Assembly: GCA_013399855.1 (NCBI GenBank)
Contig: VXAY01002873.1
Coordinates: forward strand, 881,643-945,642
DNA: 64,000 bases
Direction of reading: 5' to 3'
Origin: Oxyruncus cristatus
Lineage: Eukaryota > Chordata > Aves > Passeriformes > Cotingidae
Part shown: piece after piece, positions 36,248-64,000 of the stretch
Layout of the letters: each line of letters starts with the position of its first letter
How positions within the stretch are numbered: position 1 is the stretch's first letter
The notes under the pieces: model-generated
Database searches by the model: none
Told to the model about the DNA's origin: nothing
Seen by the model: only the letters and a program-made list of their open reading frames with translations
Position numbers and translations under genes: made by a program

Positions 36248-38208
36248 GTAAGTTATTTGTCTCGTGGGCTCTGAGGCAAAGAGCAGGGGAAAATGGCTAG
36301 CAGAGCATTGTCCTACCAGTATGCTCTTGCTTTCACCTCCATGTCTAATGAAGACATCCATAGTTTGGAGTCAGGTTCTACACAATTGCCTCTGTAATAA
36401 GTAGCTAAAGAGGTACTAACCCTAATGGGCTTAAGCCACGGCAAGGGGTAAGACTACAACCTGAAGGGGGCCTAAAGCTGGAGAGAGATTTCTTATAAGG
36501 TTATGTAGTGATAGGACAAGGGGTAATGGCTTTAAACTGGAAAGGAGTAGGTTTGGATTAGCTATTAGGAAGAAATTCAGTACTGCGAGGGTGGTGAGGC
36601 ACTGGAACAGGTTGTCCAGAGAAGTTGTGGATACCCCCTTACTGAAAGTGTTCAAGGCCAGGTTGGATGGGGCTTTGAGCAGCCTGTCTAGTGGCAGGTA
36701 TTCCTGCCTGTGTCAGCGAGTGTTGGAACTAGATGGTCTTTTAGGTTCCTTCCAAGGCAAACCATTCCATGATTCCAGTTATAACAATAATAACAGTACT
36801 TATCCTTTGGATCACAGTGAGGAATAGCCTTTAGGCTGCCTTTACAGTGGTGGAGATGGCGATGCTCTGGTGCCACCTCTCGTGCTGCTCAGATATAACA
36901 AGCCGGTGGCATCCGTGGGTGAATCAGTGCCATTACTTGCCAAGGTGGCCAGTGCAAGTGTTTTCTTTAATTGTCAACGCTGAATTCACTCGCTGTTCAG
37001 TGACAACCCGCAGACACCTGTTACACTGTGGTGCGAGGCTGCTCAAGGACTGAAACACTGCTCGGCTCTCACTTCCCTGCACGTCCATAGCGGGATCCCC
37101 GCAGGGACATGAGTGAGACTGCAGTGTCCTCTAGTGGAGCATGGGCTGAAGGGAATGTACAAGAGGGTTTTAGGACACGTTTGTTTCTGCTAATGATTTC
37201 TACAAAAGCAGGCTGTTTGAAGAGGTCATAATTTTAAACGGAGCAAGTATATTCTTCTCTCTGCCAAGTAATGGAAGTGAAGTTCTGTAGATAAAGCAAT
37301 AGAAGCAGACCCGGATTTTAGACTTCGTTCAATAGCAGGCTGTTGCTAGACAGAGCATGCTTTGGTATGGTATTGACTGTGGGTTTTATCAGCTTATTTT
37401 GAGTCAAGTGCATTTAGCAGAAGAAGTTAAGGTCTTTCAGTCTGAGCCCAAACACAGGCTTTCTTGTACACAACATTAAAAATCCCTCGAAGAGTTAATT
37501 GTCTCGTTAGTCTTACTCACATACACAGTAACTAAAAGAGCTGTAACCCTACTAAGCTCAGAGCTTTCAAGGGGTGAAAGTGACATAATAAATCTCACTG
37601 TAGCTCTGCAATGCAGCAGGTTTTTGGTGATCTATGACTTGCACACATAAATACAGATGATGTGTGTGTCAAAGTACATGTACATATAGATACATACAGA
37701 TACATATAGACTGACATCTGATGGACTCATATCATTTTAATTCTTATCTGTAATAAGGAAAAGGTCTTAACCATTTAAAAAGTCCTTTTTATTCTAAAGT
37801 GTAAGTGAAACATGTCACATGTCAATTTGCACTTATTTCACAGCGGTGAATGGTTTAATTTTCTAAAGTGGTTTCTAATCCTGTGATCTCTGATTTTTTT
37901 TGAGTATCTCTTTTTAGATATCTGATTTCTGAGATACTGATTTTCTTTGCAGATATAGATGCTAACTGTGGCATAAGGTCAGACTAACGTGAAATGCAAA
38001 CCTTGAAGCAATAGAAATTACATACTACTCATGAAAGTGAGGGCCACAATGTATCAAAAATCATTAAATAAGTTTCTGTAAAGTCAGAGGAAAAATAAGC
38101 TGGTTTTACTGAACATCATTCTTGCTCTTTGGGATAAGTTTTGTGTTCGTGGCATGGGTCATGTAGATACATATATTCAACTGAAAATGTTTCTTTCTTC
38201 TGCTTCAG
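36248..38208 (+). other. SULF1 intron (1.96 kb)
   Basis: Contains a sense CR1 copy (36440-36780), a GC-richer stretch of unknown nature at about 36840-37150, and a degenerate TACATA-type simple repeat near 37680-37710. Confidence 0.93.
36440..36780 (+). mobile_element. CR1 LINE 3' fragment, sense
   Basis: Has 'GGATTAGCTATTAGGAAGAA', 'GGCACTGGAACAGGTTGTCC', 'GAACTAGATGGTCTTTTAGG' and a CCATTCCATGATTCC tail, in CR1 order. 5'-truncated. Confidence 0.92.
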
Positions 38209-41678: not shown

Positions 41679-43072
<1,394 letters not shown>

Positions 43073-43968
43073 TAAATAGTAGTGTTTATTTCCATTTTAT
43101 TCATTTTCTTTTCATCTACTTAAGTACTAATTACATGCATGAAGTGTCGCTCCCCTAAGTGTTGCTCTGAATAGTTTGGAATGATCCATATACATCTACA
43201 CAACCACATGACCAGGAAGCTTCTTTGCGAGTTTGCACAGGTTATTCTCCACAGATATCGATGGCAAACAACAGCATTTGAGAGAAATGCTACGGAGAGG
43301 ATATCATGTTTTTGGAACTAATCCATAACAAGCACATGCAGATCTTCATAATCATAATCCTTTTCTCTGTTGCAGGATTTATTTGGTTAGTTTTTGCCTC
43401 CCACTATCAGGTGAGGTATTAAATCTTGTGTTTACTCAAACCGCTGTCTGCCTATGTGAACAACTTCAGGCACTACACCACAACTGAGACTTAACACTGT
43501 AAACTTCTAATCAGCAGTAATCTCCTCCATTTTTTTTTTAAGAAAACAGTATTTCTTTGCAAGAGTCTCTGAGTACAAAAATAGTTGGTATTTTTGCTTC
43601 ATATCTCTGGGATTCATTGCACTTAACTTTGGTTGATTGAACATTGTGATTCCTTTTTTTTACAGGAATATTCCCTTCTACATAGTTTATGGTGTTGCGT
43701 CTTTGTATCTCTTTCTTCATCTACAAATATTTCTCTTTTTTACAATATCTGATTGTATGGGAGTTTTATTATTTTTTGAAAAACTATGGTTTTTCAGTTC
43801 TTTTATATAAAACTTCCAGGAAATCTCTGTTGGACTGCAGCTCTGTCTTTATTTAACACAGTACATTTCTTTTTAGGAATTAGATGCTGTGCATGGAAAA
43901 CTACATTGTGAATGGTTTTACAAGTTCTAAACACTAACAAAAGTTACTCTTGTATTTTCCTATATCAG

Positions 43969-44002
43969 GAAATAAAGATGGAGGAAGCTATGATCCACAC
44001 AG
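43969..44002 (+). CDS. SULF1: SULF1 34-nt penultimate micro-exon (GNKDGGSYDPHR)
   Basis: Between TATATCAG and CACAG|GTATTC. With the G from the previous exon it reads GNKDGGSYDPHR, matching the normal Sulf-1 tail. At 34 nt (not a multiple of three) its inclusion or exclusion changes the frame of the last exon: inclusion gives the usual RGQLWDGWEG end, and skipping opens the 269-codon downstream frame. Confidence 0.96.
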
Positions 44003-47000: not shown

Positions 47001-49198
47001 CTCTTCTGGGCCCAAAGACACCTTTCTGGCTCCTTCTTTGCCCCACCACTGCCCTGGTCCATCCCCAAAACAGTTACCAGTCAAACATCACTCCTGTTTC
47101 AGTTTCTGCCATAACATAGCAAATTGCTTTGGCCACTTATTTTCCCTACAGCAGTTTGTTTTCCTAGACAGGCTGTGATGCATGAAAGAAAAAAAATCAT
47201 GAAACTATCAATAGAAATAATAACAGAGAAAAATTTAAACATCATCACATTTGCAGCATGGTTAAGATGTCAGAGGGTTTGGTGACTAAATTACCTGAAA
47301 AAGCATCCCTGTCTGTGATGTTTTCTAGGGCCCTTTTTGCCTCTCAGCACTGGAATAGTAAGTCCTCTTTCTTGAAATCTCCGTGGTATTGAATTATCTT
47401 TTGTTTCAGGAAACAAATTATCCATATTTGACTTGCCAAGGTGGCTCTCAAGTGGCCGTGCCATGATTTCATTTCTCTTGTCTACTTCAGGAAAAGAAAG
47501 AAGGAAGACACTCTGTCCTAGCTGTTCTACCAAAATTCAAAAAGCTTGTTTTTTCCTGAAACAGGAAGTTTGCCAAACATTTGCAAAAAAAATAATTTCT
47601 AGACCTTGATCTGAAAAAAGAGAAAATATTTAATTTTTATGTTGTCAAATATTTACAATTGCATGAAGTGAAAAAATAACAAGAGCAAATATTCAGGTGT
47701 TTTCAAGTACAGAAAATGATGTCCTTTTGGTGGGAGCAGAATAAGGCCCCACATCATAAGAAAATCTCAAAGTTTTTTTCTGACCGTAATGGTATTTTTC
47801 TGACTTTCCCTAGGATGGACTAGATATTGGAGAAATTCTTTGCACTATGAAATCCTGATCTAGTAAGAAGCAAAGAATATCATCTGTGACAGACAGAAGT
47901 TGTATCTTCTGTTTTACTTGAATAATGAGACAGGGCAACTTAAAATGCAAACAAATTAACGGAGATGCTAAGAACCAACTGCAGGGATGAAGGGCTCAAT
48001 ACAGATGAATATTTGAGCTCAGTTCACACTGTTGGAGTATAGCCACTTGAACTTCTAAAGTAATTGGTACTAGCCTACCTGCCTATACAATTTTCAGAAG
48101 GTGAATAAATCATACCAGTGAATTAATTACTAAAGATTGCCTGCAATATCATTTGTAAGGACAAATTTTTCATTTTCCCTGACAGACATTTGCATTGCCT
48201 GATTAGTTTTTCCTTGAAGACCACTTAGTTGATAAAATCTTTGGACTAAACACAGTCTGCGCAGTGAATTAAATAAAACAGTGCTGTTCAGCGTTACTTG
48301 TCAATATTAAATAGGCTTCACACCAACAGTTAATAATCTGAGTAACTATAGTTACAGTAGTGACTTTTTAAAATACTTTGGAAATGGGTTTCCTTCATGT
48401 CTTTGCATTTTCTGCCTGTGATCAATAAAAAATGCAGCTCCATTGCTACTTTTAGTCTCACATCTATGCCCTTTATTCAGACTTATTATTTGATAAGGCT
48501 GTTGGGTATTTTCTTTGAAAGTTTTTTTTAAAAAACAAAACCTTAAGAAGATTCTCTGTGTATATTTTAACACTATTTTACAAAGTGGTGCAGTCCTATA
48601 AATTAATTCACATCATTTTTTTACAGCTTTTATTTCCCCTAACTGCTCCATATAAATTAAAATCAATGTTTACAAAATAGATTAAAACCTCCTTTGGCTA
48701 TCAGTTATTAAATAAAATGTGTCTGGTTAGTTTGTAGGTCTTATTCTTAAGCTACCCAGAAACCAAATTCACATGGGCATTGAAGTTCAGGTCACCAGTG
48801 GCTTTCAGAGTTAGTCCCATCTTTTATACTTAACCATTGTTTTGTTATTGCGTATTTTGCTGGAGTTTTCAGGAAAGGTGAATTTGTGTATTCCTGCCTT
48901 GAAAGAGGAAAGTCTTACCTCTGAATGCCATCACAAAGCCCCATTAGACCAGATTTTGTTCTTTTTTACTCAGCCCAAGGATGTAGCATAAGACAGGGGC
49001 GTTCTTGCTATGTGTTTAGCAGGAGTTGTGAACATATCCAAGGCCAGAACCATTCATGTGATGACAGAAGAGGTGGAATGTCTTACACTTTGAGCTGCCT
49101 ACTTTATGAACAGTGGTGCTTTCAAGCAAATTGTAGTAGAAGCATATGTTGCACTTTTAATACTGTTCACCATTAGGCTTTATTCTTTCTTTCAACAG
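44003..49198 (+). other. Last SULF1 intron (5.2 kb)
   Basis: A long final intron between the 34-nt exon and the terminal exon. No CR1 copy was recognised. It contains an (AAAC)n stretch near 46266-46283 and a C-rich low-complexity segment near 46850-47060. The open frames 44472-44666, 45750-45965 and 45892-46242 (minus) have no recognisable features. Confidence 0.92.
46266..46283. repeat. (AAAC)n simple repeat
   Basis: Four to five AAAC units in the last SULF1 intron. Confidence 0.85.
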
Positions 49199-49229
49199 AG
49201 GACAGTTATGGGATGGATGGGAAGGCTAA
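49199..49229 (+). CDS. SULF1: SULF1 terminal coding exon (RGQLWDGWEG stop)
   Basis: After TCTTTCAACAG the exon completes Arg and reads GQLWDGWEG, then TAA at 49227-49229. This tail is nearly invariant in Sulf-1 and, with one change, in Sulf-2 (LWEGWEG). The exon continues as the 3' UTR, but its first 31 nt already carry the start of another open frame. Confidence 0.98.
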
Positions 49230-50022
49230 CCTGCCCAGTTTCACTGGTGACATTGACTGGCAAGGACTGGAAGACTTGTACAGTGTGAATGAAAGTGTAT
49301 ATGAATACAGATACAACTTTAGACTTAGTCTGGCTGACTGGACTAATTACTTGAAGGATGTAGATAGAATGTTTGCACTGCTGAACAGTTACTACCAGCA
49401 AAATCAAACAGACAAGGATAACACTGCTCGAAGCAATGGGGACAGGGACGAATCATCTACGCCTTTTACCTTGGTGGAAATGACTTCTGCTGAAGAATCG
49501 AGCGGCCTGACTGCAGAAGAGTTGCAGCTGATTGTGCCAACGGACTTTGCATCCCTTGCTTTGAGCACAGTGACTTTAAGTCAGGAGAGGAAACTTGAAT
49601 TAAACAATGATATTCCTGAGAAAAGTAGTTTGAATGACGCACACTGGAAAAATAGTCATCAAGCTGAAAAATGGATGGAGGATAAAGAATCGGACCGTTT
49701 TGATATGGATTTCAGTGGAAACGGTTTGATAGAGTTGGAGTCCCGCCATACCTTCATGCTACAGCCCATCAGCATTCCTCAAAAAGACGCTCATCAGGAT
49801 AGTGACACTGTGGAAGATATATTTGAGGATCAAATGTATCTTCCCATGAGGTCTGATGAACCCCTCGTTCATCAGGCTGTAAACATATCCATTAGGGATT
49901 CACCTATCAGTACCCAGAAAGGAGGAACTTTCTTAAAAAAAACAGAACAGAGTCTTGCAGGAGAAAGTTCACAAATCCTAAATGTAGAAGGCAGTGCCTC
50001 AGCTCCACTCTCCTTGGATTAG
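49213..50022 (+). CDS. Downstream/alternative ORF in the SULF1 terminal exon, 269 codons
   Basis: A 269-residue open frame starts at an ATG within the last SULF1 codons (+1 frame) and runs through what is annotated as 3' UTR. The ATG context is strong, with G at -3 and G at +4. The frame is also open back to the exon start at 49199. The predicted protein is acidic and hydrophilic, with no signal peptide or membrane segment. Its N-terminal third is aromatic and helix-prone: 'DIDWQGLEDLYSVNESVYEY', then 'RYNFRLSLADWTNYLKDVDR'. It then becomes Ser/Thr/Glu-rich and disordered-looking, with DIFEDQMYLPMRSDE near the end and SASAPLSLD as the last residues. I recognise no domain. It could be translated by re-initiation, as a C-terminal extension of SULF1 when the 34-nt exon is skipped, or not at all. 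For an AT-rich 3' UTR, 270 codons without a stop is unexpected. Confidence 0.6.
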   Translation: MDGKANLPSFTGDIDWQGLEDLYSVNESVYEYRYNFRLSLADWTNYLKDVDRMFALLNSYYQQNQTDKDNTARSNGDRDESSTPFTLVEMTSAEESSGLTAEELQLIVPTDFASLALSTVTLSQERKLELNNDIPEKSSLNDAHWKNSHQAEKWMEDKESDRFDMDFSGNGLIELESRHTFMLQPISIPQKDAHQDSDTVEDIFEDQMYLPMRSDEPLVHQAVNISIRDSPISTQKGGTFLKKTEQSLAGESSQILNVEGSASAPLSLD

Positions 50023-50072
50023 ATCCAGTTGTAAACTGTTAAATTAGTTCCCGTTTTGCTTATTAGCAAACT

Positions 50073-50078
50073 AATAAA
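50073..50078 (+). terminator. Proximal poly(A) signal AATAAA
   Basis: AATAAA in 'CTAATAAAGGTAATC', 51 nt after the stop of the downstream open frame. It would give a compact transcript that still includes the whole 269-codon frame. Confidence 0.5.
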
Positions 50079-51566
50079 GGTAATCATGACAACTGACATT
50101 CCATGTTTATTGTAGATACATTTTGCAGCTAAATTGAGCCCAGTTCAGTATTTGTCTGTGTGCATTTTTTTTTATTTAAATGCACATGCTTTCACTGTAA
50201 TTCTCTCCACTGGGAAGCAAGATTTCCAGTTTTCCATTAAAAGAAACAGTGTTAACTTCAAAATGCAGTAGCACATTCTCTGAAAGCTAAAAATTAATTA
50301 TTTGAAGAGGATGTCAAGTTACTTTCTCTATTTCCAAATGATCTCAGCATGAATGTTTCATTTCACCCAATATGCCTGCACAATGTCTTTCTCATCGATT
50401 ATTTTAACCACTGGCAATTCTTAATGTCACACTTTCAAGTAAAATGCACTTTTAAAATCTGTATGCCATACCATTCATGAATCTAATACCTTACAGGTTC
50501 TTAGTTTGCTCGTTGTTTCATGAAATTTTGAAACCAGTAAGTAGATTGACAGGAAGGAGGTAAACAGCATGGACTGTGGAAACAGACTCTTTGAATATTA
50601 TTTTAGCAAAAATATTGCATGTTTTTGTTACTTTAATTAAATTTACTCTCAGAAAGGTATGGCTAATGGTTGTTAACTGTAGAAGGATTTGTTTAAATTG
50701 GATTGTTGATACTGTCAGTATTAAAATTCAATTTATTTTTTTGACTTTTTTTTTTTTTACTGATACTGGTAAAAAGGTTTACATCAATTGATAAATGCTT
50801 TTGTCACCCCACCTGATTTTTATTATTCTGAACAATATCTTGAAAACATTATAATTTTGAGTCTTAAATTCTTTCTTTGTTTTGAACAGGCATTAAAGGG
50901 AATGATAAAATCATGTTAGATTTCCATTATTTTAGATACAAAGGGCACATGAGGTTAAAAAATAGTAGTTTAGGTAATTTTTGTTGTATTCTAAATTTTT
51001 TCTTGAACTTTACCAAACATTAAATTTTATGAAGTATAATACCAAAATGACTTTGAAAATTTGTATTACTCAAAACTTGATATTTTCCCTTGTTTTTTTA
51101 TAAATTTCTAAATAATTAGCACAACAACAACAAAAGAGAATTACCTCAAACAGATGTAATTCCATAGTGTCCAACTCATGGGTGTTTCCTATCTCTTACA
51201 TGTTATTTAGTGTAGTGAGTATTTTTTGGCTATTGCAAGCACTGCAGGTTAAACTTACATTCATTACATTGTATTTTAAGTTGAAACTTTTTAAAAAGGA
51301 GATTCTTTTAGTAGGATTAATAATTTTAAGAAGCAGTCTTTTTGATGGACTCTGTAAATATGTTAAAATTACTAGTTCTTTGTTTGATGTATGTGTCATG
51401 GGCTGATTGATAGAAAAACATATTTATGGTCATGAATGATGCTATTTGTACATAGGTTTTAAGTTACTAGGATATAAACTGTGTTTTTAAATCTTGTATA
51501 ATATTTCTGTGATACTTTTATAGTACAATTCTGGCTTCGGGAAAGTCTAGAAGCAATATTTCTTGA

Positions 51567-51572
51567 AATAAA
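51567..51572 (+). terminator. Distal poly(A) signal AATAAA (probable SULF1 end)
   Basis: AATAAA in 'CTTGAAATAAAAAGTGTTTT', followed by a T-rich/GT-containing stretch as expected for a cleavage site. It fits the usual length of the SULF1 3' UTR as I remember it. Confidence 0.6.
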
Positions 51573-53401
51573 AAGTGTTTTACTTTACCTGCTTCAGAGG
51601 AGTCCAGATGATCCAATTTTCCTCCTGATTAAGTTTTATTTTAAAAATATGTTAACAGTTCGACCTTTAAGAATCCATCCACATTTAAAGCAACAGGTAA
51701 CAAAATAATACACAACATTCTGTTAGCTATAAATTATTCCTGGAGATGTGAATAATATATATTTCTTTGTTTAAGACATGCTGTGATTTTATTTTTTTTA
51801 ATTCCACACTCATCTGATCCTTTCTTCCTGGAGTCAGTGCACCGAGCTGCACAACCAGCAGTTCCCAGAAGTAAGGCAATGTTACATAAAACCATGTCCT
51901 GCTTTGCTGCTCTCTCTCCTCCCTACAGAGTTCTCCCTGTGACAGAGAAGCACAGCAGACAGGACACACAGGGCTTAGCAGGAGTGGACCACAGATCTCT
52001 AGCCAGGAGCAGTGTCTAGTTGTACAAGAGTCATCACAAGAAAGAATTTAGGTTTCAAGGCAGACTCTCTCTTACTTGCAAACTCTATGTTTGTTTGACA
52101 GACTGTGAATAAGATTAACTTCATACCCAAACTCAGCCTCTGAATCTGTGCTTCTTGAATTCTTCTTTCTTTTACACAGTCCTTGGACACTGATGCTCCT
52201 GCCAACGTGAAGTGCCAGGTGAAGTTTGTGGGAATCAGGAAAGGGGGTGAACCTAAGTGTTCAAGAAGCAATCATTGCAGTATCAGATAGACCCCTGAGA
52301 GATTTCTGCCCTGGAAAGCACACTGGGAAGCACAGGACATATTTCAAAACAGAGTGCAGAGCAGGCTGAGCCAGTGAGTTTGGGAGGACTTGAAGGACAA
52401 AGGTAAATTGAAGCAAGGTCCCATACAACTACCTCTCGTATCTTTTGCAGGGAATTATCCAGCACCAACAATGTGCCCTACGTTCTTTGGAAGAGCTCTT
52501 CTTTGAAAGAACCAAGCAAGATGCTTTCTTCTCTCTTCATGCTTGGGTAGAGATAAAGAAGGGAATGGTGCAATAGTGTGGTCCACCCATTCACTTGTCC
52601 TTCCTTCTTATCCAAGAGCTTGAAATACTCACTCAGGAAATGGAAACTTCTAGGACAGCGCTCAGTCTTCTAAACTATCAGAAGCTTATATAGTACCCTG
52701 TCTTCTAAACTAGGTGGGAGTGTTTTTTACAGCTCTCTTAGAGGAATGTGGAGGAAAGAAAGTATAAAACACACTCATTCTGTATCTAAGAGGTACAGGG
52801 AGCAATGAATTCTGATCCTTGCTCTCTTTGAAACATGCATCAAATATAAAACTCGGCCAAGTTAAAGAGGGCAAAATCTGTCCTATCCCTAAGTATGTAT
52901 CCTAAGCAGTGTGTTGCTGTTTAAATATCTTTTGCATTTCTTTCTGTACAGTACTTCTTGTCCCGTAGCTGAAGCAGTCGAGTCTATGAGCAGCACACGG
53001 TGTGACTGTCAGGAAGCTTTTACAGGCATTAGGCAGTTGCAGGCTCAAGAACAAAACAAGTGCCTAAATCTGACTTCATCAGCAAGCATTCAAGGCAAGG
53101 GAAGGGTTGAGAGGAGGACCTTCTTGGCATTTTCTGATCTGTAGAGCAGTGGCAGGTGTGACTATTCTGAAAGGCAGTACATAGTTAATTACTTTATGAA
53201 GAGTGTCTGGAGCTGAAGAGAAAGAACTTTAGGCTTGCACATCTTTGGGAAGTACCAATGTTTTGTAAAAAGTTTATCCTAGAAGTTAAAATAGGGCAGC
53301 CAGTATTGCCCTCACACCCTTGGACAGGCTGAGACACTTTCTGAGACCTAGCAACTGAACCCTGAAGAAAAGCAAAGATACGCAGTGCTTCATTTCCAGA
53401 A

Positions 53402-63052: not shown

Positions 63053-63498
63053 CTATATCTCAGCAGTGACTTCTTCCAACACATTTTCATTTGAGGAATT
63101 TATTGCTTCTGAAAAAGGGCCGGGGTATGTCTGTTCTAAGCAGTTCATTCCTTGTGCCACATTGGTGTCTCCTCGGGAACTGAAGGTAGGGCAGGATCTA
63201 GTCCGTGCATAGTTTTGCTGGGGTCCAGCTTGTCCAACCATTTCACTCACAGTGTTCACCAGGGAAGCCCTCCATCTCTGTCTCTGCTGTTGTTCTTCTT
63301 TACACTTGATGGAATACCAGGCCAGGAAAATAAAAAGGAATCCCACGAACTTGAGAGCAGCTGCCAACCCAAAGTAGACAAAACGAAAGGAGGTGACATC
63401 GTATTCCCAGCAAGATCCTTGTACGCCGCAATCCTGTTGCCAAAGCATGCATGTGGTGTCAATAACAGCCCCAAAATAAATTGGAGTGGGAATGTAAG
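63053..63498 (-). CDS. SLCO5A1: SLCO5A1 last coding exon
   Basis: On the minus strand the exon follows the acceptor TTTTTATTTCAG. It completes one codon and then encodes 147 residues and a stop. It reads YIPTPIYFGAVIDTTCMLW, QQDCGVQGSCWEYDVTSFRF and VYFGLAAALKFVGFLFIFLA, followed by WYSIKCKEEQQQRQ and a Ser-rich cytoplasmic tail. The PTPIYFGAVID motif, the Cys cluster and the final transmembrane helix (FVYFGLAAALKFVGFLFIFL) identify an organic anion transporting polypeptide. The match to remembered SLCO5A1 is close through the membrane part, while the tail diverges after WYSIK. The protein is a plasma-membrane orphan solute carrier. The open frame continues into the intron to 63592 but is not coding there. 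Confidence 0.95.
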
Positions 63499-64000
63499 CT
63501 GAAATAAAAATAGCAAGTGAAATAATATGTGTTAGCACATTGTGGAAAACTCCTAAAGAAACTATACGCCTTAGCCAAACAGTGTAGGTCAAAAACTTTT
63601 GAGATTTCTACACTGCTGCTCTTACATGAAATGTAAAACATGGAAACCTGGTCAGCCAATCTTGCCACCAACACTACTTTATACACATGAAACCTACCAC
63701 AAATGGGAGAGAATTCAAACGAAGAAGACAATGCAGCAGCACCTTACAACAGGTACTGCTTCAATCTGCTGTCCCCAGACAGCTTTTGAACTACATTCCC
63801 CTCAAAGAAAATTCAGTTTTGCTCTCAGGAAGTAAAACATGGAAGAGGCTCAAATACATTATCTCGGTAGCATTACTTGCTGAACTTCCACTGCCCATGA
63901 GCTGGGAAAGGTGCTGCTTTCAGATTAAGGAGAAAAAGCACCAAAGACCACAAAAAGCTTCTCTTACTGAAGATGGATGGAAGTGGTGGGACCACTAGGA
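63499..64000 (-). other. SLCO5A1 intron (partial)
   Basis: Sequence upstream, on the minus strand, of the last coding exon. No other exon is recognised before the window ends. Confidence 0.8.

Follow-up and report, generated by a model that had tools for sequence, protein, structure and literature searches.

A probable alternative C-terminal tail of avian SULF1 behind a frame-shifting penultimate exon, with a candidate glycosaminoglycan attachment site

In a stretch of 64,000 nucleotides of genomic DNA from Oxyruncus cristatus (hereafter the window), the terminal exon of SULF1 holds a long open reading frame. Taken as a whole, the explanation that we favour, and hold to be highly probable, is that this frame makes up most of an alternative C-terminal tail of SULF1, 274 residues long, which is reached by exon skipping and is a likely bearer of a glycosaminoglycan. 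The parts of this explanation are graded separately. The tail and its splice route, i.e., the skipping of a 34-nt exon, are almost certainly correct as far as the sequence can tell. A splice-switched proteoglycan form of SULF1, similar to SULF2 and with a switch that predates the split between sharks and bony vertebrates, is put forward tentatively, as a possibility that we rate below even chances. An alternative SULF1 tail produced by exon skipping is largely known already; the splice-controlled proteoglycan form is the novelty proposed here. Published work is cited by PMC identifier, and each statement is limited to the excerpts of these papers on which it draws.

Results

An uninterrupted frame in the terminal exon

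The frame at 49213-50022 (+) runs without interruption over 269 codons and closes with TAG at 50020-50022. This is in line with a first-pass annotation of the same DNA, which had reported an open frame of 270 codons including the stop and had placed it in the SULF1 terminal exon; that exon begins at 49199. From stop to stop the frame extends over 49177-50022 (281 codons). It is the longest of the 35 stop-to-stop frames of at least 120 aa listed for the window, where the runner-up has 205 and frames crossing the window ends are left out. The remaining two forward frames contain 19 and 27 stops over 49201-50019. Resampling of 49199-51600 by a first-order Markov model, repeated 1000 times, gave longest open runs with a mean of 77 codons and none above 180, compared with 273 observed. 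When the composition of the ORF itself was resampled 2000 times, the maximum was 151. Since no resampling yielded a comparable run, the open frame is a real observation.

The ORF and the normal SULF1 coding sequence share 17 bases (49213-49229), the first of the former and the last of the latter; relative to the normal SULF1 message, the ORF is read in the +1 frame. The spliced tail frame starts further upstream than the ATG at 49213, namely with EDSYG at the exon start. Within the window's own assembly, the SULF1 locus itself is the single match to the ORF. Pfam reports no domain above cut-off in the ORF, and no solved structure matches it by sequence at E <= 1. One Pfam match, to the phage tail protein family P2_Phage_GpR, stays below the cut-off (20.3 bits vs 25) and was taken as chance.

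Exon map and splice switch

By in-frame GT-AG joining, 15 consecutive SULF1 exons were mapped, the last of which is the terminal exon. A human SULF1 sequence was used solely for locating these exons. The window starts inside SULF1; the 5' exons and thus the first part of the enzyme are located outside, and exon numbers follow the window. Table 1 collects the features discussed in the text.

Table 1. Features of the SULF1 3' region, in window coordinates
Feature	Position	Strand	Remarks
SULF1 exon 13 (window numbering), 124 nt	42941..43064	+	ends ...CNPRPKGLET plus one base; donor CAG/gtacaaga
SULF1 exon 14, penultimate, 34 nt, proposed switch	43969..44002	+	from the sequence and both joinings
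Start of terminal exon, stretch read in two frames	49199..49229	+	normal SULF1 end (TAA 49227-49229) and start of the tail
Alternative SULF1 C-terminal tail, 274 residues plus TAG	49199..50022	+	includes the ORF 49213-50022; first codon split by the junction
Predicted helix, tail residues 44-78	49330..49434	+	AlphaFold2; holds well conserved DWTNYLKDVDRMFALL
DFSGNG, candidate Ser-Gly-x-Gly glycosaminoglycan attachment site	49708..49725	+	conserved; acidic residues upstream
AATAAA, candidate polyadenylation signal	50073..50078	+	motif scan; shortly 3' of the tail stop

The length of exon 14 leaves a remainder of one when divided by three, and its omission therefore shifts the reading frame. When it is included, the SULF1 partial protein has 622 residues and ends ...GLETGNKDGGSYDPHRGQLWDGWEG-stop. 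The acceptor before 49199 is tctttctttcaacag, and canonical translation terminates in GQLWDGWEG; the protein end with all exons included reads ...KGLETGNKDGGSYDPHRGQLWDGWEG, with the stop at 49227-49229. When exon 14 is skipped, ...KGLET is joined to EDSYGMDGKANLPSF... and the frame stays open to 50022. The partial protein, ...GLET-EDSYGMDGK..., then has 875 residues, 274 of them new. Two of the 14 single-exon omissions open the tail, that of exon 14 and that of exon 13 (845 residues). In the inclusion mRNA, the tail frame has a further 32 open codons before EDSYG, with AUGs among them.

We considered whether a weak splice site causes the skipping and dropped the idea: the exon 14 donor matches 6 of the 9 positions of the U1 consensus, and the remaining 13 donors in the map match 5-8. 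The hexamer TGCATG, the core motif of RBFOX, is located around exon 14 at 43890, 44049 and 44116. This trio within 230 bases is the sole such cluster on the + strand of the window; over the whole window and both strands, the motif is not enriched (41 observed vs 50 expected). We regard the cluster as a post hoc lead on the control of the switch, and only as a lead. The motif scan found another AATAAA at 51567 besides the one in Table 1. Polyadenylation at the latter would leave the message with hardly any 3'UTR past the tail.

Homologues that carry the tail

A protein search limited to the length of the ORF returned 84 homologues at E <= 1e-3 among 735 candidates, 38-92% identical. More than half of these short matches (44 of 84) fit the pattern of a penultimate-exon peptide in the tail's frame, which indicates that inclusion of exon 14 is common in transcripts and counts against the favoured reading. 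The fused protein, used as query and scored on its last 276 residues, gave 159 matches (best 120 of 159 listed), and the coelacanth protein gave 146 (best 120 of 146 listed), 22 of them new. Among the matches listed are at least 142 distinct proteins in which the tail is fused to SULF1, mostly named extracellular sulfatase Sulf-1. The listed matches cover amniotes (birds, turtles, gharial, lizards, snakes, marsupials, placentals), amphibians and lobe-finned fish (frogs, caecilians, axolotl, coelacanth), as well as other fish (sturgeon, gar, bichir, reedfish, cyprinids, sharks, rays). The closest fused relative among them is from Manacus candei, 97% identical.

The Sulfatase and DUF3740 domains of a SULF extracellular sulfatase are found in the fused form. 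P0086, the closest fused homologue among the matches listed, matches PF00884 (1e-45) and PF12548 (2.4e-67), i.e., it combines Sulfatase and DUF3740 with the tail, and over exon 7 the open frame of the window itself matches DUF3740 (1e-20).

The distance between QC and FALL measures which junction a fused protein uses. It is 64-71 residues in 137 of the 142 listed fused proteins; in the window it is 67 in the skip form and would be 78 in the inclusion form. The five exceptions are P0152, which has inserted sequence, and P0182, P0186, P0206 and P0209, which represent other splice models. None of the 142 listed fused proteins contains the canonical penultimate-exon peptide. With one exception, these proteins come from annotation sources (141 of 142; ncbi, uniref, nr, eukprot), which show only the junctions that the annotator permitted. 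P0196, a fused protein of 1115 residues from another species, lies on a contig of 4251 bases and hence derives from a spliced transcript.

Two side observations concern other models of the region. P0186 and P0209 are read as lacking exon 13 and retaining exon 14; they resemble the form in which omission of exon 13 alone likewise opens the tail frame. Separate 'uncharacterized protein' models of the tail exist in the Balearica crane (LOC104639323) and in the mouse lemur Microcebus (LOC109731101), as records P0002 and P0047, and the crane additionally has a fused SULF1 model (P0089).

The first-pass annotation had suspected a protein-coding frame with a mammalian counterpart, and the 84 homologues and at least 142 SULF1-fused proteins, mammals included, confirm it. 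Frameshifts and stops in other amniotes, which it had named as counterevidence, are contradicted by full-length homologues. Its further idea, an independent second protein that starts at the ATG of 49213, did not hold. This position is M in 117 of the 142 listed fused proteins, T in 14, K in 6 and unparsed in 5. As the Met is not conserved, we read it as an internal residue and not as a conserved start. An alternative SULF1 C-terminus via skipping of the 34-nt exon fits best.

Composition and predicted structure of the tail

The 274 residues of the tail have a pI of 4.3 and include 10 prolines, no PxxP and, in the window copy, no cysteine. In 119 of 142 aligned rows, cysteine is absent beyond the first 18 aligned residues. 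Agreement with the commonest residue has a mean of 82% of rows over tail residues 1-67 and amounts to 56-66% over the rest.

For the tail, AlphaFold2 was given an alignment of 39 sequences (the window tail and 38 matches) of the 85 in the short-protein set. It predicts a single long helix and is otherwise of low confidence, with a mean pLDDT of 48.2. The mean values are 70 for residues 41-50, 81 for 51-60, 69 for 61-70 and 51 for 71-80. A helix-prone N-terminal part had been claimed from the sequence, and the prediction agrees in placing a helix at residues 44-78. Given the low pLDDT outside the helix, this remainder is read as mostly disordered. The prediction for a full homologue of 1120 residues, based on 40 of the 142 fused sequences, was uninformative (mean pLDDT 34.6).

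A candidate glycosaminoglycan site

The Ser-Gly alignment comprises 142 rows, the window and 141 of the 142 listed fused proteins. One match was left out, P0152, whose inserted sequence puts its tail outside the length limits; four matches that lack the RSC anchor were placed by means of their final 300 residues. At the column of DFSGNG, SG is found in 139 of the 142 rows, SGxG in 116 and the exact DFSGNG, the commonest form, in 70. The three rows without SG belong to one monitor lizard and two caecilians. Among the rows that keep SG, those of gharial, lizards and snakes have SGND (D not G), and in elephant and camel S replaces the second G of SGxG. The residue preceding F is non-acidic in several deep clades. 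These departures count against a sugar chain at the site.

This conservation stands out from its surroundings. SG is retained by 32 of 33 cluster representatives at 70% identity, by 14 of 16 at 60% and by 7 of 8 at 50%; the median column identity past tail residue 68 is 0.42 for the 70% clusters. N-glycosylation sequons are less constant than the Ser-Gly (NES in 117 of 142 aligned rows). The 12 residues upstream of SG hold a mean of 4.65 acidic residues, compared with 2.07 over all tail positions, and 4.3% of tail positions reach this mean. In the window these residues are EDKESDRFDMDF, 6 of 12 acidic, in an arrangement that differs from the EDQDDKD of SULF2. The window's DFSGNG presents a Ser-Gly acceptor in a DFSGxG core, as known for the SULF2-type site.

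From the conserved sequence and by analogy to SULF2, the long SULF1 might carry a chondroitin-type chain at the DFSGNG serine. We hold this as a working possibility and still consider it rather doubtful. No report of a glycosaminoglycan on long SULF1 was found in the open-licence PMC literature.

Discussion

Comparison with known systems

In more than 10% of human and mouse genes, a skip of the penultimate exon that shifts the frame carries translation on into the 3'UTR, according to the excerpts of Preussner et al. 2020 (Genome Biology, PMC7392665). The SULF1 case has the same layout as these splicing-accessible coding 3'UTRs, i.e., a frame-shifting skip of the penultimate exon (34 nt), a new stop in the last exon (50020-50022) and translation of the 3'UTR. 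Its 274 new residues compare with the class limits of at least 20 new residues and at least 10 within the annotated 3'UTR. Mouse Sulf1 is among four mouse genes for which RT-PCR primers flanking the penultimate exon are listed there. The product had been called overlooked, which is only partly true: databases already name such SULF1 isoforms, and the mouse Sulf1 primers in the excerpts of PMC7392665 point the same way. The class as described in these excerpts differs from our tail in that its exons are less conserved than frame-preserving or tail-shortening ones, whereas the SULF1 tail of 274 residues reaches sharks.

Known SULF1 variants likewise arise by alternative splicing with altered function. 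Those described in the excerpts, quail Sulf1B and human forms without exons 6, 7, 8 and 18 (PMC3224561, PMC3890690, PMC8999074), are shorter, while the tail form is longer.

In SULF2, the natural chondroitin-sulfate site is Ser583 in GGDFSGTGG, behind EDQDDKD (PMC13405426, a preprint, and PMC10721642, both by excerpt). It shares with the SULF1 tail the DFSGxG core, upstream acidic residues (though in another arrangement), disordered surroundings and the enzyme family. As the SULF2 site lies in the hydrophilic domain of every copy and the SULF1 candidate in a splice-optional C-terminal tail, an independent origin is probable. DFSGNG looks, by this analogy, like a second SULF glycosaminoglycan site, which would be available only with the tail translated.

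The excerpted text of the preprint PMC13405426 reports SULF1 (871 residues) to be without a chondroitin-sulfate chain, and that of PMC10721642 calls HSulf-1 GAG-lacking. When a site was engineered into SULF1, a chain was added, and secretion and activity were raised (PMC13405426). The SULF2 SG segment alone or the acidic cluster alone was insufficient, both together gave a modest amount of modification, and strong modification required the acidic cluster plus Trp at the second position past the Ser (same preprint). At this last position the SULF1 tail differs, as it carries N or D, which likewise counts against a chain. What such a chain does is disputed in the excerpted sources: its removal enhanced HSulf-2 activity (PMC10721642), whereas its addition enhanced both SULFs (PMC13405426).

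Alternative explanations

A splicing error is the rival that we take most seriously, although it is improbable. The long form would then be mainly a by-product, and a skip that escapes NMD would provide a destabilising tail for disposal. The 3'UTR-encoded tails tested in PMC7392665 lower stability, and its excerpts suggest a role in surveillance; the SULF1 tail is, by prediction, mostly disordered. The class in that source, however, tends to gain proline and PxxP, whereas here 10 of the 274 residues are proline and PxxP is absent. Moreover, disposal needs no conservation of single residues from shark to mammal, such as the SG kept in 32 of 33 clusters. An open frame by chance, without coding function, would suit the lack of a Pfam domain above cut-off, but its probability is negligible: none of the 1000 and 2000 resamplings reaches 273 codons, and the reading is already refuted because homologues exist, 84 short and at least 142 fused ones.

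Two further readings dispense with the skip and rely on unusual translation of the normal SULF1 mRNA. Translation might restart at an AUG that overlaps the stop of SULF1 (MEEAMIHT in the penultimate exon, or 49213) and so give an independent protein. The 32 open codons before EDSYG with their AUGs and the separate NCBI models of Balearica and Microcebus are compatible with it, and the excerpts of PMC3923131 report five human transcripts whose second, overlapping ORF apparently depends on termination-reinitiation. We nevertheless consider it quite unlikely, as the AUG at 49213 is not conserved as Met (see above) and the AUGs inside the 34-nt exon sit in sequence that SULF1 also constrains. Conserved Ser-Gly and N-glycosylation sites, furthermore, would best suit the secretory pathway, which would be closed to a leaderless protein. 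About 870 codons of coding sequence precede, and reinitiation after such a length is rare. Still less likely, and hardly to be expected, is a programmed +1 ribosomal frameshift near the normal SULF1 end that yields the fusion without splicing. Relative to the normal mRNA, the tail does occupy the +1 frame, and this frame is open before EDSYG, but exon skipping produces the fusion without unusual decoding, and the transcript contig of P0196 reads straight through at the distance of the skip form. The database models weigh little against frameshifting, because annotation pipelines do not model it.

Proposed mechanism and consequences

From a mechanistic point of view, skipping of exon 14 would work as follows. 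With the exon included, the reading frame ends after GQLWDGWEG; with the exon skipped, exon 13 meets the terminal exon in a shifted frame, which runs to the TAG. Both SULF1 forms are presumably made in Oxyruncus cristatus, and the long one would be secreted via SULF1's own signal peptide. In its acidic, mostly disordered tail, the DFSGNG serine might take a chondroitin-type chain like that of GGDFSGTGG in SULF2. Splicing would then set the share of plain enzyme and proteoglycan enzyme, and the proteoglycan form may alter the secretion of SULF1, its reach or its heparan sulfate activity. SULF1 edits heparan sulfate and hence Wnt, FGF and BMP signalling.

If the conserved long form exists as protein, SULF1 constructs of 871 residues or fewer omit coding region, and variants in the SULF1 '3'UTR' would be coding. 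The constructs described in the excerpts of PMC13405426 and PMC8999074 are 871-residue, full-length or shorter forms. If the tail does bear a glycosaminoglycan, the division into a GAG-free SULF1 and a GAG-bearing SULF2 would be a matter of splicing.

Neighbouring features

The open stretch at 36465-36827, for which Pfam gave no match, resembles the 3' portion of a CR1 retrotransposon of birds. At 63053-63604 (-), convergent with SULF1, an exon encodes the terminal part of an organic anion transporter domain (Pfam OATP, 3.1e-15); by gene order, this is presumably SLCO5A1.
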